Shown piece by piece: positions 31,510 through 37,573 of a DNA stretch of 64,000 nucleotides. How positions within the stretch are numbered: the stretch's first letter is position 1; each line of letters begins with the position of its first letter. Both the position numbers and the translations under genes were made by a program. Source of the DNA: Allostella sp. ATCC 35155 (GTDB lineage: Bacteria > Pseudomonadota > Alphaproteobacteria > ATCC43930 > Allostellaceae); contig AP019701.1 in assembly GCA_006738865.1 (NCBI GenBank), positions 735,001 through 799,000 on the forward strand. Reading direction: 5' to 3'. Below the pieces are notes generated by a model, which searched no databases, was not told where the DNA came from, and was given only the letters and a program-made list of their open reading frames with translations.

Positions 31510-32490
31510 ATGGCGCTCTCCTGGCGGCTTCGCCTCAAGCTTCATGCCGCCCGCTGGCTGGGCGCGATCGGCGGCGCCTTCGTGGCGGCCTTCTTTCTGG
31601 CCGCCCGTGTCGTTCCCTATGCCTGGATGGCAGGTGCCGGCGGCTGGATCGCCCGCACGCTCGGCCCGCGGCTCAAGCCCAGCCGGACGGCCCGCGCGAA
31701 CCTCGCGCAGGCCTTTCCGGAGAAGGGCGAGGCCGAGCGCGAGGCGATCCTGCGCGGCGCCTGGGACAATCTCGGCCGCACGGCGGTCGAATATCCCTAT
31801 CTCGGACGCCTCTGGGACTATGATCCCGCGCACCCGGAACGGCCGGGCCGGATCGAAGTCGTCGGGCGCGAGCACTTCATGGCCCTGCGCGACGACGGGC
31901 GGCCGGGGGTGATCTTTGCCGCCCATCTCGCCAACTGGGAACTGCTCGCGGTGGCTGCCGCGCGGCACGGCCTCGACATCGCCGTGCTCTACCGCGAGCC
32001 GAACAACCCGGCGATCGCCCGCATCATCCGCCGCATCCGCGGCCAGAACATGGGCCGCCTGATCCCGACCGACCTGCGCGGCGGCCTCGCGCTGGTCGGC
32101 GTCCTCAAGGGCGGCGGGCATGTCGGCATGCTGGTCGACCAGCATTTCAGCCGCGGGCCGCTGGGCCGGTTCTTCGGCCGGCCGGTGCGCACCGCACCGG
32201 CCGCCGCCAAGTTCGCCCGCGCCTTCGAATGTCCGCTGCACGGGGCGCGGGTGATGCGCCTGCCGGGCGGCCGGTTCCGCGTCGAGATGACGCCGCCGCT
32301 GGCGATCCCGCCGGCGACCGGCGATGCCGCGGCCGACGAGGCGACGCTGACCCAGGCCATCACCGACGTCATCGAGACCTGGGTCCGCGAGCAACCCGAG
32401 GACTGGCTGTGGATGCACCGGCGCTGGCGGGTGGAGGGAGGCGCGGCGCCCATCCCCTCCGGCGTTGACAAACGGGGAGCCGCCCGATAG
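31510..32490 (+). CDS. LpxL/HtrB-family acyltransferase, LpxXL candidate
   Basis: 326 residues. An N-terminal membrane anchor (LGAIGGAFVAAFFLAARVVPYAWMA) precedes the lysophospholipid-acyltransferase fold, with the catalytic HX4E motif in IFAAHLANWELLAVAAARHG and LVDQHFSRGPLGRFFGRPVRTAPAAAKFA downstream. This family adds secondary acyl chains to lipid A at the inner membrane. Because AcpXL starts 95 bp downstream and a full VLCFA elongation set follows, transfer of a very long acyl chain from AcpXL (LpxXL role) is likely. In Rhizobium lpxXL lies at the other end of the cluster. Confidence 0.85.
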   Translation: MALSWRLRLKLHAARWLGAIGGAFVAAFFLAARVVPYAWMAGAGGWIARTLGPRLKPSRTARANLAQAFPEKGEAEREAILRGAWDNLGRTAVEYPYLGRLWDYDPAHPERPGRIEVVGREHFMALRDDGRPGVIFAAHLANWELLAVAAARHGLDIAVLYREPNNPAIARIIRRIRGQNMGRLIPTDLRGGLALVGVLKGGGHVGMLVDQHFSRGPLGRFFGRPVRTAPAAAKFARAFECPLHGARVMRLPGGRFRVEMTPPLAIPPATGDAAADEATLTQAITDVIETWVREQPEDWLWMHRRWRVEGGAAPIPSGVDKRGAAR

Positions 32491-32585: not shown

Positions 32586-32870
32586 ATGGCCGCCACCGTC
32601 GATGCCATCGCCGAAATCATCGCCTCGACCTGCAACCTGGATCGGGCGACAATCACCGTGGATTCGCACATCATCGACGATCTCGGCGTCGACAGCCTCG
32701 ATTTCCTCGACATCGCGTTCGCGATCGACAAGCGGTTCGACATCAAGATGCCGGTCGAGAGCTGGATGGAGGACGTCAATGCCGGCCGGGCCAGCAGCGA
32801 CGACTTCTTCATCATGCGCAATCTCGCCGCGCGCATCGACGATCTGGTCGCGGCCAGGGCAGCGGGATGA
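32586..32870 (+). CDS. acpXL: Acyl carrier protein AcpXL type
   Basis: 94 residues, longer than housekeeping AcpP (about 78). The phosphopantetheine site is Ser37 in DDLGVDSLDFLDIAFAIDKRF. The longer C-terminus (SDDFFIMRNLAARIDDLVAARA) matches AcpXL, the special carrier for 27-hydroxyoctacosanoic acid in rhizobial and Brucella lipid A. It leads a run of overlapping genes for chain elongation. Confidence 0.88.
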   Translation: MAATVDAIAEIIASTCNLDRATITVDSHIIDDLGVDSLDFLDIAFAIDKRFDIKMPVESWMEDVNAGRASSDDFFIMRNLAARIDDLVAARAAG

Positions 32871-32910: not shown

Positions 32911-33384
32911 ATGGACTTCGAATCCTTCCGCCTCGTCGATGCGCTCGACGAGTTGAGCCTGTCGCCCGCACGCATCGCCATGCGCGGCCGCGTGCCCGAG
33001 CGCTCGACCATTCTCGACGCGCATTTCCCCGGCCATCCGATCATGCCCGGCGTGCTGATGGTGGAGGCGATGGCCCAGGCCTCGGGCTATCTCCTGCTGG
33101 CGTTGACCCGCGCCGGCCGGATGCCGTTCCTGGCCGAGGTGCGCGAGGCGAAGCTGCGCGCCTTCGTGCCGCCCGGTGCGGAACTCGCCATCGCGGCCGA
33201 ACTCGAGCACGAGGGCTCGGGCTATGCCGTGACGCGGGCCAGCATCGCCCGCGACGGCCGGCGCGTGGCCGAGGCCGAGCTTCGCTTCCGCACCGTCCCG
33301 TTCCCCGCGCCCGAACTCGCCGCGCAGATGCGCGCGGCCATGGTCCGGGTCGGCCTTCCCGACCCGGCGGAAGCCGGGGCATGA
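32911..33384 (+). CDS. 3-hydroxyacyl-ACP dehydratase (FabZ-like, XL cluster)
   Basis: 157 residues, hot-dog fold. The catalytic His and Glu are in DAHFPGHPIMPGVLMVEAMAQASGYLL. It removes water from 3-hydroxyacyl-ACP during elongation. The ATG at 32911 is 40 bp after the acpXL stop; its own stop overlaps the next start (ATGA). This position matches fabZXL of rhizobia. Confidence 0.88.
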   Translation: MDFESFRLVDALDELSLSPARIAMRGRVPERSTILDAHFPGHPIMPGVLMVEAMAQASGYLLLALTRAGRMPFLAEVREAKLRAFVPPGAELAIAAELEHEGSGYAVTRASIARDGRRVAEAELRFRTVPFPAPELAAQMRAAMVRVGLPDPAEAGA

Positions 33385-34562
33385 GCGCCTCCGGCCGCGA
33401 GGTCTGGATCACCGGCGCCGGCCTCGTCACCGCGCTCGGCGAAGGGCGCGCGGCGCACCGGGCCGCGCTTGCCGATCCCGCCGCGCTGGCCGCCGCCCGC
33501 GACGAGGCTGCCTTCGCCCCCTTCGCGATCCATCCGATCCGCGCGCTCGATCTCGACCGCTACATGCCCCGGCGCGGCGACCAGCGCGCGACCGGTCCCT
33601 GGATGCACTACGGCATCCATGCCGCGGGGATGGCGCTGGAGGCGGCGGGCGTGCTGGGCGATGCCGCACTGCTCGCTCGCACACATGTGCTGGCCGCCGC
33701 GGCCGGCGGCGAACGCGACACCGCGCTGGACGAGAAAATCCTCGCCGAAGCCGCGGGGGCGCCCACGCCCGCCGCGCTGACCGTGACGCGGCTTGCCGAG
33801 GGGCTGCGGCCGACGGCGTTCCTGGCCCAGCTGTCCAACATGTTCGCCGGCAACCTCTCGATCGTGCTGGGGCCGGCCGCATCCAGCCGCACCCTGATGG
33901 GCGAGGAGTCGGCCGGCGTCGAAGCCGTCCGCATGGCCGGGCGTCGCGCGGGCGCCGGCCAGGGCGATCTCTTCCTCGTCGCCGCCTCCTACAACGCCGC
34001 ACGGCTGGACATGCTGCTGCTGCACCGGCTGGGCGGGCGCCTGCTGGAGGGCGCCTGGACCGACTTGTGGTCGCGGCCTCCGGCCGGCATGTGCCTCGGC
34101 AGCATGGGTGCGGCGCTGGTCGTCGAGGCCGCCGACCATGCGCGAGCGCGCGGTGCCCGGCCGCTCGCGCGGCTGGTGCGCGTCGCCCATGCCTGGTCCG
34201 ACCGGACCGCTGGCGCGGCCGCCGCAGCGGCCGAGCGGGACTGGGCCGATCTGCCGCGGGATTCCTCGACCCTGATCCTCAGCGCCGCCTCCGGCGCCGG
34301 GCCGGCGACGGCCGACGAGCGGGACTTTCTCGCCGGGCGCGGGGTCGTCCGCGGCACCGCCGCCGCCATCGGGCACGGCGTCGAGGCGGCGTTCGCGGCC
34401 AATCTCGTGCTGGGCGCCTGGTGCGCCGAGGACGGTGCCTTCCCGGCGCTCTCCTCCCATCCGGTCGAGGCGATGCCGGCCGCGGCCCCGGAGCGGGTGG
34501 CGGTCAGCGGCTGGGGCGTGCGCCGTGGCGAGGGCCTCGCCGTGCTGGAGCCGGTCCGTTGA
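33381..34562 (+). CDS. Ketosynthase-like protein lacking the catalytic Cys (FabF2XL position)
   Basis: 393 residues, beta-ketoacyl synthase fold (EVWITGAGLVTALGEGRAAHRAAL at the start). The nucleophile Cys that should lie in a TACASG motif is replaced: here the stretch is LGPAASSRTLMGEESAG (about residues 163-178). The first His (NAHGTGT in active enzymes) is also gone, with SAASGAGPATADERDF in its place, while a GH remains in AAIGHGVEAAF. It should not condense by itself. By position and loss of Cys it resembles the chain-length-factor half of KS-alpha/KS-beta pairs, partnered by the complete ketosynthase that overlaps its 3' end. Confidence 0.82.
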   Translation: MSASGREVWITGAGLVTALGEGRAAHRAALADPAALAAARDEAAFAPFAIHPIRALDLDRYMPRRGDQRATGPWMHYGIHAAGMALEAAGVLGDAALLARTHVLAAAAGGERDTALDEKILAEAAGAPTPAALTVTRLAEGLRPTAFLAQLSNMFAGNLSIVLGPAASSRTLMGEESAGVEAVRMAGRRAGAGQGDLFLVAASYNAARLDMLLLHRLGGRLLEGAWTDLWSRPPAGMCLGSMGAALVVEAADHARARGARPLARLVRVAHAWSDRTAGAAAAAAERDWADLPRDSSTLILSAASGAGPATADERDFLAGRGVVRGTAAAIGHGVEAAFAANLVLGAWCAEDGAFPALSSHPVEAMPAAAPERVAVSGWGVRRGEGLAVLEPVR

Positions 34563-35803
34563 GCGCGTCCGTCGCCGTCACCGGCATCGGCATGGTCACC
34601 GCGCTGGGCCAGGGCGTTGCCGCCAACTGGCCGGCGCTTCTGGCTGGCCGGTCCGGCATTCGCACGCTGACGCGCTTTCCCGTCGAAGGCTTGCGCTGCA
34701 CCTTCGGCGGCGCGGTCGATGATGACGGCCTGGGCGGCCTGCCGGCGGCACAGCGGTGCCTTGCCATGGGTCGCATGGTTGCGTCCGAGGCGCTGGCCCA
34801 GGCCGGCCTTACCGGCTCCGGTTTCGGGGGGCCGCTGGTCCTGGCCCTGCCGCCGATCGAGCTCGAATGGCCGCAGCGCCGGGCGCTGGCCGCCCGCGCC
34901 GCGGCGCCGTCCTACGCCGCGATGCTCGCCGCGGCGGCGGGCGACGCCGACGATCCCGCCCACCGGGACTTCCTGTTCGGCACCGTCGCCGAGCAACTGG
35001 CCGAGGCATTCGCGACGGCCGGTCCGCCGGTCACGATCTCGACCGCCTGCGCCTCGGGCGCCACGGCGATCCAGACCGCGGTCGAGGCGATCCGCCGCGG
35101 CGACTGCGACCGCGTGCTGGTGGTGGGCAGCGAAGGTTCGCTGCAGGTCGAGGCGCTGATCCGGTTCGGGCTCCTCCAGGCACTCTCCACCCACAACACC
35201 GATCCGGCCGGGGCCGCCCGGCCCTTCGCCGCCGACCGCGACGGCTTCGTCATGGCCGAAGGCGCCGCGGCGCTGGTGCTGGAGCGGCCCGCGGCCGCGG
35301 CCGATCGCGGGGCGGCGATCCTGGCCTATGTCCGCGGCTGCGGCGAGGCGGCCGACACCTTTCACCGGACCCGCAGCAATCCGGACGGCGGGGCCATCCT
35401 GCGCGCGATGGCCGATGCGGTGGCCGATGCGGGCCTCGCGCCCGATGCGATCGACCACGTCAATGCCCATGGCACCGGCACGCCCGAGAACGACAAGATG
35501 GAATGCCTCGCCTTGCAGCTCCTGCTGGGCGAGCGGGTCGGCCGGGTTCCGGTCACCGCCAACAAGTCGATGATCGGCCACACGCTGAGCGCGGCCGGCG
35601 CCATCGAGGCGGCAGTCTCGATCCTCACCCTCCGGCATGGCCTGATCCCGCCGACGATCAACCACCACCATCCCGACCCGGCGCTGCCGCTCGACATCGT
35701 GGCGGGCGCTGCGCGACCCTTCGCCGGCCGGACCGTGCTCTCGAACTCGTTCGGGTTCGGCGGGCAGAACGTGTCGCTGGTGCTCGGGCTCGATCCCGCA
35801 TGA
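34559..35803 (+). CDS. Beta-ketoacyl-ACP synthase (FabF-type, FabF1XL position)
   Basis: 414 residues. The complete active site is present: Cys164 in TISTACASGATAIQTAVEAIRRG, His in HVNAHGTGTPENDKMECLAL and His in ANKSMIGHTLSAAGAIEAA. It condenses malonyl-ACP with the growing acyl-ACP. The start is a TTG at 34559 that overlaps the upstream stop; the first ATG (34592) would cut off the conserved VAVTGIGMVTALG strand, so TTG is preferred. Together with the Cys-less partner it could form a heterodimer that sets the very long chain length. Confidence 0.88.
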   Translation: MSASVAVTGIGMVTALGQGVAANWPALLAGRSGIRTLTRFPVEGLRCTFGGAVDDDGLGGLPAAQRCLAMGRMVASEALAQAGLTGSGFGGPLVLALPPIELEWPQRRALAARAAAPSYAAMLAAAAGDADDPAHRDFLFGTVAEQLAEAFATAGPPVTISTACASGATAIQTAVEAIRRGDCDRVLVVGSEGSLQVEALIRFGLLQALSTHNTDPAGAARPFAADRDGFVMAEGAAALVLERPAAAADRGAAILAYVRGCGEAADTFHRTRSNPDGGAILRAMADAVADAGLAPDAIDHVNAHGTGTPENDKMECLALQLLLGERVGRVPVTANKSMIGHTLSAAGAIEAAVSILTLRHGLIPPTINHHHPDPALPLDIVAGAARPFAGRTVLSNSFGFGGQNVSLVLGLDPA

Positions 35804-35813
35804 GCGGGCCGGC

Positions 35814-36530
35814 ATGAGCGGAACGCAGGGGCGGGTTCTGGTGACGGGCGGCGGCCGCGGAATCGGCGCGGCCATCGTCGCCCAGCTCGCCGCAGCCGGC
35901 TGGGAGGTCGACTATACCCACCGCCGTGGCGCGGGCGACGGGCCGGGCCGGGCGATCGCCTGCGACCTCGCCGACCGTGCGGCGGTCGATGCCCTGGCCG
36001 AGGAGGCGGTCGGCGCCGGCTATCGCGCCTTCGTCCACAATGCCGGGGTGAGCTACGACCGGCTGGCGGCCATGGTCGACCAGACCCAGGCCGAGACGGT
36101 GATGCAGGTGAATTTCTGGGCGATGACGCGCATCACCAAGGCCCTGGTCCGCCCGATGACGGCGGCGGGCGGCGGGCGGATCGTCGTCGTCGGCTCGGTT
36201 GCAGCACTCGCCGGCGGCCGCGGCAATGCCATCTACGCGGCCTCGAAGGCGGCGGCGCTGGGCTACCTGCGGACGCTGGCGCAGGAGGTGGCGCGCAAGG
36301 GCGTGACGGCGAACTACGTCGCGCCCGGCTTCGTCGATACCGAGATGCTGGCCGGCTACGGCGCCCATCGCGAGCGGCTGGAGCAGCAGATCCCGGCCGG
36401 CCGCTATGCCCGGCCCGAGGAGGTGGCGGCCGTGGTCGGCTTCCTCCTGTCCGATGCCGCCGCCTATGTCACGGGGGCGGTGCTGCCGGTCGATGGCGGG
36501 CTCTCGGCGGCGATGGCCGTGCAGCGATAG
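35814..36530 (+). CDS. 3-oxoacyl-ACP reductase (SDR, FabG-like)
   Basis: 238 residues, classical SDR. Cofactor motif TGGGRGIG near residue 11, NAG in FVHNAGVSYD, and the catalytic Ser and YxxxK in VGSVAALAGGRGNAIYAASKAAAL. It reduces 3-oxoacyl-ACP with NADPH. It starts 10 bp after the ketosynthase, in the same operon, supplying the ketoreduction step for the XL cluster. Confidence 0.88.
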   Translation: MSGTQGRVLVTGGGRGIGAAIVAQLAAAGWEVDYTHRRGAGDGPGRAIACDLADRAAVDALAEEAVGAGYRAFVHNAGVSYDRLAAMVDQTQAETVMQVNFWAMTRITKALVRPMTAAGGGRIVVVGSVAALAGGRGNAIYAASKAAALGYLRTLAQEVARKGVTANYVAPGFVDTEMLAGYGAHRERLEQQIPAGRYARPEEVAAVVGFLLSDAAAYVTGAVLPVDGGLSAAMAVQR

Positions 36531-36538
36531 GCGGGACA

Positions 36539-37573
36539 ATGGCGAAGATGCAGGCGCTGCGGCTGCTGGCCGAGCGCGAACTGGCGCTGGTCGAGGTGGA
36601 GGAACCGCCGCCGCCGGGACCGGACGAGGTCCAGGTGCGGGTGCGGGCGATCGCCCTCAACCATATCGACCTCTGGGGCTTCCGCGGCATGGCCTTCGCC
36701 AAGCGCACCTTGCCGATCACGGTCGGGGTCGAGGCGGTGGGCGAGGTCGTGGCCGCGGGGGCGGAGGCGCGGTTGCCGCCGGGCACGCGCGTCGCCCTCT
36801 ATGGCGGGCGCACCTGCGGCGTCTGCCTGGCCTGCCGCCAGGGCCGCGACAATCACTGCGCCGAGGTCGCGGGCATCGCCGGCTTCCATGTCGACGGTTT
36901 CGCCCAGACGCTCGTCAACCAGCCGGCGCGGCTGTGCGTGGCGATTCCGGACGCGATCGGCTGGACCGAGGCGGCCTGCGCCCCGCTGACCTTCGCGACC
37001 GTCGAGCACATGCTGTTCGACAATGCGCGCCTGATGGGGGGCGAATGGGTGCTCGTCCATGCGGCCGGCAGCGGCATCGGCTCGGCCGCGATCCGCCTCG
37101 CCAAGGACCAGGGTGCCACCGTCATCGCGACCGCGGGCGACGACGCCAAGCTCGAGAAGGCGCGCGCGATCGGCGCCGACCATGTCGTCAACTACCGCAC
37201 CCAGCGGTTCGAGAGCGTCGCACGCCGCCTGACCGGCAAGCGCGGGGTCGATGTCGTGTTCGAGCATGTCGGGCCGGATACCTGGGGCGGCAGCCTGCTG
37301 GCGCTCGCCCGCGGCGGGCGGCTGGTCACCTGCGGCTCGACCAGCGGCATCCAGGCGGAGACCAACCTCTTCCTCGTCTTCCAGCAGCAGCTGCGGATCT
37401 TCGGCTCGTTCGGCGCCACCCGCCGGAACGTCCGCGACGTGCTGGCGCGCATGGCCGCCGGCCGCGTCGCGGCGGTCATCGACAGCCAGCTGCCGCTCGA
37501 CCGCTGGTCGGAGGGGCTGGCCCGCATCGAGGCCCGCCAGGTCTTCGGCAAGATCGTGGTGACGATGCCGTAG
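36539..37573 (+). CDS. Zinc-type MDR alcohol dehydrogenase / enoyl reductase (FabXL position)
   Basis: 344 residues. GroES-like N-terminus, a structural-zinc Cys set in GGRTCGVCLACRQGRDNHCAEVAG, and an AAGSGIGSAAIRLAKDQGA nucleotide motif. The rhizobial VLCFA cluster also has an MDR dehydrogenase gene here, thought to serve reduction in the elongation cycle. It starts 8 bp after the SDR gene and appears to end the operon. Confidence 0.87.
   Translation: MAKMQALRLLAERELALVEVEEPPPPGPDEVQVRVRAIALNHIDLWGFRGMAFAKRTLPITVGVEAVGEVVAAGAEARLPPGTRVALYGGRTCGVCLACRQGRDNHCAEVAGIAGFHVDGFAQTLVNQPARLCVAIPDAIGWTEAACAPLTFATVEHMLFDNARLMGGEWVLVHAAGSGIGSAAIRLAKDQGATVIATAGDDAKLEKARAIGADHVVNYRTQRFESVARRLTGKRGVDVVFEHVGPDTWGGSLLALARGGRLVTCGSTSGIQAETNLFLVFQQQLRIFGSFGATRRNVRDVLARMAAGRVAAVIDSQLPLDRWSEGLARIEARQVFGKIVVTMP

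Follow-up and report, generated by a model that had tools for sequence, protein, structure and literature searches.

A putative ketosynthase/chain length factor-like pair dedicated to AcpXL in the lipid A very-long-chain fatty acid cluster of Alphaproteobacteria

We analyzed a 64,000-nucleotide stretch of the Allostella sp. ATCC 35155 genome (contig AP019701.1, positions 735,001 to 799,000; hereafter the window), in which two adjacent ketosynthase (KS)-like genes lie in the cluster for the very-long-chain fatty acid (VLCFA) of lipid A. Open reading frame 1 (ORF1; 33381..34562, 393 amino acids [aa]) encodes a FabF2XL-type protein, scoring 371.6 bits against NCBIfam NF005084/PRK06519 (cut-off, 320), and ORF2 (34559..35803, 414 aa, TTG start) encodes a FabF1XL-type protein; these and all features below are on the plus strand. 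Our results indicate that the two products quite probably form an obligate heterodimer, resembling a KS with its chain length factor (CLF) and dedicated to the acyl carrier protein (ACP) AcpXL, in which FabF2XL is catalytically dead. In such an enzyme, FabF1XL would perform the chemistry with its Cys-His-His site, Lys and GFGG gate. FabF2XL would supply one side of the dimer interface and the tunnel end, and its basic surface would dock AcpXL, feeding the FabF1XL active site.

Active sites of FabF2XL and FabF1XL

An earlier, sequence-only reading of the window had located both ORFs correctly and had described ORF1 as lacking the active-site Cys and the NAHGT motif, which our alignments bore out. 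Its choice of GPAASS as the counterpart of TACASG was a misalignment: joint MAFFT alignments and an hhalign profile-profile alignment of both families rule out GPAASS as the Cys-equivalent motif and place the Cys column about 8 residues downstream, on Glu176 in MGEESAG (Glu175-Glu176 codons, 33903..33908; Glu176, 33906-33908). In an AlphaFold2 model of FabF2XL, which has the ketosynthase fold (predicted local distance difference test score, or pLDDT, 88; predicted template modeling score, or pTM, 0.90), Glu176 lies between strand 169-173 and helix 177-191, at the nucleophile-elbow position. Gly174, Glu175 and Glu176 are invariant in 99/99 FabF2XL proteins. Since the 80 named loci, which are rich in Bradyrhizobium and relatives, had partly been fetched with the motif RTFMGEE, we took the 20 FabF2XL proteins found by hidden Markov model without the motif as the unbiased set; GEE is present in all 20.

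The remaining catalytic positions are altered as well. Where the first catalytic His would stand, ORF1 has Ser304 (34290..34292), in a column that holds Thr in 56, Ser in 34, Cys in 8 and Asn in 1 of the FabF2XL proteins and His in none (0/99). Together with the 99/99 conservation of Glu175 and Glu176, this composition argues that the losses are not due to chance. The catalytic Lys (NKSxxGH) is gone, and G-H-W-R-G-E stands where the GFGG gate loop would be. Of the two His residues, the second survives, as His332 in the window (34374..34376) and in 94/99 proteins overall. Thus, where an active beta-ketoacyl-ACP synthase has Cys and two His residues, ORF1 has Glu176, Ser304 and His332. The sequence-only reading would have been contradicted by an active-site Cys at some other position; the only Cys residues of ORF1, at positions 238 and 348, are not conserved, which dismisses a hidden nucleophile. 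That reading had also left open whether rhizobial FabF2XL shares the losses. The Sinorhizobium meliloti protein, found by tblastn, does: it has GEE, lacks NAHGT and is accompanied by an intact partner. Purifying selection acts on FabF2XL (Ka/Ks of 0.26-0.33, versus 0.23-0.27 for FabF1XL). We conclude from these alignments that FabF2XL is almost certainly a catalytically dead ketosynthase homologue. As a separate observation, one contig binned as a gammaproteobacterial Chromatiaceae metagenome-assembled genome (L128; CALZIO010000079.1) carries the whole cluster, with Asn at His332, either through transfer or through mis-binning.

ORF2, by comparison, holds the catalytic residues that had been ascribed to it: Cys164 (TGC, 35048..35050; 95/95 FabF1XL relatives), His304 (35468..35470) and His341 (35579..35581). 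Both His residues and the Lys are present in 93/93 relatives with letters at these positions, and GFGG is kept. The family also has a motif of its own in the tunnel-end/interface region, PPIELEWPQR in the window (34850..34879) and PPxExxWxxR across relatives (P99 95/95; E101, W104 and R107 each 94/95). Because ORF2 scores 582 bits against its best match, NCBIfam NF005076/PRK06501, below the cut-off of 629, we named it FabF1XL-type by synteny and best match. Of 16 matches to FabF1XL across the class, 7 likewise fall short of this cut-off, so that automated annotation under-calls the catalytic partner.

Complementary conservation, carrier docking and pairing

Conservation in the two families is concentrated in different parts of the fold. 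With a conserved residue defined as one kept in at least 97% of FabF2XL proteins, 27 of the 56 conserved residues of FabF2XL fall within residues 105-176 (expected, 10.3; P=1.9e-8), a segment that includes S169-M173 and that lines up with the tunnel end of FabF (GIGG region), with ACP region 2 and with the nucleophile strand. The equivalent stretch of FabF1XL holds only 9 of 117 conserved residues (expected, 20), and the C-terminal half holds 70 (expected, 56). The most conserved stretch of FabF2XL is GGERDxxxD, whose GGERD (residues 109-113; 33705..33719; 99/99) aligns with the FabF tunnel end and with what we take to be the gate residues of the actinorhodin CLF.

In crosslinked FabF-AcpP structures, most ACP contacts come from the non-crosslinked monomer and involve Lys65, Arg68 and Lys69, as well as Arg127, Lys128 and Arg206 (PMC7138838). 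The first of these patches is kept in FabF2XL, where PRRGDQR (33567..33587) aligns with the Lys65/Arg68/Lys69 region and Pro63 (99/99), Lys/Arg64 (97/99) and Arg69 (99/99) are conserved. FabF1XL has a deletion there and no conserved basic residues, and the mean Lys/Arg count in residues 60-76 is 4.2 for FabF2XL versus 0.8 for FabF1XL. In region 2, FabF Lys128 aligns with FabF2XL position 141, which is mostly acidic (Asp 71, Gly 15, Glu 13) and is Gly in the window. At a ketosynthase-contact position, AcpXL of the window and of loci L059-L138 has Asp-Lys (residues 48-49) where AcpP has Glu-Glu, with Lys49 in 80/80 proteins. AcpXL Lys49 and FabF2XL Asp141 may thus represent a charge exchange relative to AcpP Glu and FabF Lys128, and these patterns suggest AcpXL-specific docking on FabF2XL.

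Since the two genes are in frame in several loci, pairing was modeled as a read-through chain consisting of FabF2XL, stop, spacer and FabF1XL of Bradyrhizobium sp. CER78, with 17 other paired rows. AlphaFold2 folded this single fusion, run without a control, with a pTM of 0.83, a mean pLDDT of 78.8 and a disordered linker. For two halves of 400 residues, such a pTM implies that their relative placement is confidently predicted by the model; the FabF1XL half aligns to FabF structures. An actual gene fusion was considered and rejected, as the 806-aa frame of L013 and comparable long frames are out-of-frame stretches that stay open in GC-rich DNA.

Published genetics are consistent with a joint function. 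An Agrobacterium fabrum fabF2XL insertion mutant has no lipid A VLCFA, and complementation with fabF2XL alone is partial (PMC11901934); the A. fabrum gene, at 1197 bp, fits PRK06519. In Bradyrhizobium ORS278, neither fabF1XL nor fabF2XL mutants were obtainable (PMC5613085). Taken together, we infer that FabF1XL and FabF2XL very probably associate physically. A docking or tunnel role of FabF2XL, with docking in trans, also appears likely from the conserved positions. That FabF2XL sets chain length is more tentative, the balance tipping slightly against it, and the sequence evidence would favor an ACP-docking or enabling role at least as strongly.

Distribution and gene neighborhood

We surveyed 385 genomes across the class, scoring FabF2XL and AcpXL over their cut-offs and FabF1XL at E<=1e-130, and found FabF2XL in 17, AcpXL in 17 and FabF1XL in 16. 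Every mismatch falls at a contig end or on a short locus that such an end could explain: the FabF2XL match in G227 starts at base 12 of its contig, the contig of G343 stops 194 bp past acpXL and the locus of G231 is short. The order acpXL-fabZXL-fabF2XL-fabF1XL is seen in the window, in S. meliloti and in the named loci, where it is constant whenever the contig is complete. Four named loci have no FabF1XL start within 300 bp; three of these list FabF1XL nearby. Within the taxonomic order of the window, FabF2XL over the cut-off occurs only in its own genus and is missing from all 27 genomes sampled from the order's other family, some of them incomplete. This suggests that the gene was either acquired by transfer or lost from the sister family.

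The pair adjoins genes of the known lipid A VLCFA cluster. Upstream lie a gene for an LpxXL-like lipid A acyltransferase (31513..32490, start approximate; NF005120/PRK06553, 379 bits, cut-off 273), one for AcpXL, the dedicated ACP (32586..32870; NF005079/PRK06508, 138 bits, cut-off 83), and one for a FabZXL-like dehydratase (32911..33384, start approximate; Pfam FabA, 61 bits; FabZ models, 71-73 bits), whose stop overlaps the FabF2XL ATG. AcpXL is the single one above the cut-off in the window's genome (a 5.34-Mb contig). Downstream are a FabG-like short-chain dehydrogenase/reductase (SDR; 35814..36530; Pfam adh_short_C2; FabG subfamily model, 185 bits, below the cut-off of 222), which by sequence is likely the ketoreductase of the elongation cycle, and a zinc-binding alcohol dehydrogenase family protein in the Adh2XL position (36539..37573; Pfam ADH_zinc_N and ADH_N). 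The LpxXL-type gene is upstream of acpXL in the window and downstream of the pair in S. meliloti and most named loci, and the SDR between fabF1XL and adh has counterparts in the clusters of only a minority of named loci. The overlap of the two KS-like genes that had been noted earlier is real, spanning 4 bp (ORF1 stop, 34560-34562; ORF2 TTG at 34559), and is not a conserved trait, the usual spacing in the named loci being 10-30 bp.

Alternative explanations and comparison with known systems

Several points weigh against the heterodimer proposed here. The evidence that FabF1XL binds FabF2XL is indirect, and genes sharing a pathway would be expected to lie side by side in any case. For the fusion model, only 18 related rows were available, the linker was forced and there was no negative control; it was judged on pTM and pLDDT rather than on coordinates or inter-chain error, and pLDDT varied from 53 to 79 among its five models. 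The docking positions were carried over through alignments with about 20% identity and not read from a solved structure. The named-locus sample was collected partly by the GEE motif and is rich in Bradyrhizobium and relatives. The A. fabrum insertion could alter fabF1XL expression, and its complementation was partial.

Among the alternatives, FabF2XL might be an ACP-docking or stability subunit only, with length set by the FabF1XL pocket or by LpxXL specificity. The retention of the basic patch in FabF2XL and its loss in FabF1XL fit this well, and the exchange between AcpXL Lys49 and FabF2XL Asp141 likewise points to ACP recognition; we nevertheless consider it rather unlikely as a full account, because GGERDxxxD aligns with the CLF gate and the FabF tunnel end, which suggests a tunnel role too. 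Ketosynthases with Gln in place of Cys decarboxylate malonyl-ACP, and FabF2XL, with an acid instead of the amide at the Cys position and the second His usually kept, could similarly prime AcpXL or supply the condensation carbanion. Such enzymes have Gln and keep His and Lys, whereas FabF2XL has Glu, lacks His332 in 5/99 proteins and has lost the first His and the Lys, which are generally reported as needed by decarboxylating ketosynthases; we regard this function as very unlikely. A second active condensing enzyme, used for example in late elongation steps, would agree with NCBIfam and published tables, which name FabF2XL a beta-ketoacyl-ACP synthase (PMC7663294; databases label both members of the pair active enzymes), as well as with the ketosynthase fold and the second His. 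It is made highly improbable by the absence of Cys, first His, Lys and GFGG gate from all sampled relatives and by the lack of conservation of FabF2XL's own Cys residues. The lost catalytic residues and a long branch (1.51) might also be expected of a decaying duplicate kept by chance, an explanation left with next to no weight by the invariant motifs, the Ka/Ks of about 0.3, the class-wide co-occurrence and the A. fabrum mutant phenotype.

We thus retain the KS/CLF-like heterodimer as the most probable reading. In its widest form, the proposal is that an ancient heterodimer of this kind acts in alphaproteobacterial lipid A VLCFA synthesis, FabF1XL reacting and FabF2XL recognizing AcpXL (in part through the Lys49/Asp141 exchange) and shaping the tunnel for C26-C32 chains; this version as a whole we favor only narrowly. 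These chains anchor the outer membrane of rhizobia and their relatives and are needed for fitness and symbiosis, and we found no mechanism in the literature searched for how their length is set. We found no mention of the missing FabF2XL active site in the open literature, although older subscription literature on the cluster may hold one, and the open literature searched did not yield "chain length factor" together with AcpXL. Should one "synthase" of the cluster indeed prove to be a dead partner, all Alphaproteobacteria carrying the cluster are misannotated at this point and the enzyme is a heterodimer whose chain length and carrier choice are open to subunit-swap tests. CLF-like logic would then apply to a membrane lipid as well as to polyketide and polyene pathways, placing in envelope lipid metabolism a CLF-type partner whose dead-site signature, Glu-Glu, differs from that of CLFs.

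Among the closest known systems is the acpXL-lpxXL cluster of rhizobia (S. meliloti, A. fabrum, Bradyrhizobium), which has the same gene order and families and whose FabF2XL is treated as an ordinary ketosynthase in the open literature examined. S. meliloti FabF2XL, like that of the window, has Glu for Cys and has lost the first His; the window differs in its upstream lpxXL, in the SDR and in a FabF1XL below the NCBIfam cut-off. FabF/KAS II shares the fold and the chemistry of FabF1XL, but it is a homodimer in which each monomer has an active site and docking patches.

The KS-alpha/CLF-like pair suggested by the sequence-only reading is well supported by the dead member, the adjacency and co-occurrence, the complementary conservation, the fusion model and the published genetics, with the qualification that FabF2XL is not a canonical CLF. 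In type II polyketide synthases, as here, an intact KS stands beside a Cys-less partner that has also lost the first His, and the site motifs are alike (SEQAGG in CLFs, GEEAAG in FabF2XL). In the act-type CLFs compared (actinorhodin 1TQY and six plasmid clusters, L140, L141 and L145-L148; L142-L144, L149 and L150 did not provide a useful CLF), the Cys position holds Gln (His in one), the first His position Asp and the second Arg, and Lys is kept. FabF2XL has Glu for Cys in 99/99 proteins and Ser/Thr for the first His, and it reverses the CLF pattern in having lost the Lys and kept the second His; its carrier is also fatty-acid-like and its product saturated. The CLF clade (support, 100) and the FabF2XL clade (95) are separate, the latter on its long branch, which rejects a recent duplication of FabF1XL. 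A rough approximately unbiased test on a reduced set (5000 replicates) rejected neither FabF2XL+CLF (0.42) nor FabF2XL+FabF1XL (0.18). A fold search returned FabF chains first, with CLF chains not among the matches listed, and does not discriminate CLF from KS. Judged by its sequence, FabF2XL would work like a CLF without being classed as one, as it has Glu instead of Gln and the tree does not settle a shared origin. The reducing KS-CLF pairs ApeO-ApeC, Iga11-Iga12 and AmcF-AmcG likewise combine a KS with a dead partner in fatty-acid-like cycles, and in Iga11-Iga12 the ACP contacts the CLF (PMC8358021). ApeC, however, is only half-size and some secondary structures are missing from AmcG, whereas FabF2XL has full length, its 393 aa including about 372 residues that align to FabF; those three pathways belong to secondary metabolism.

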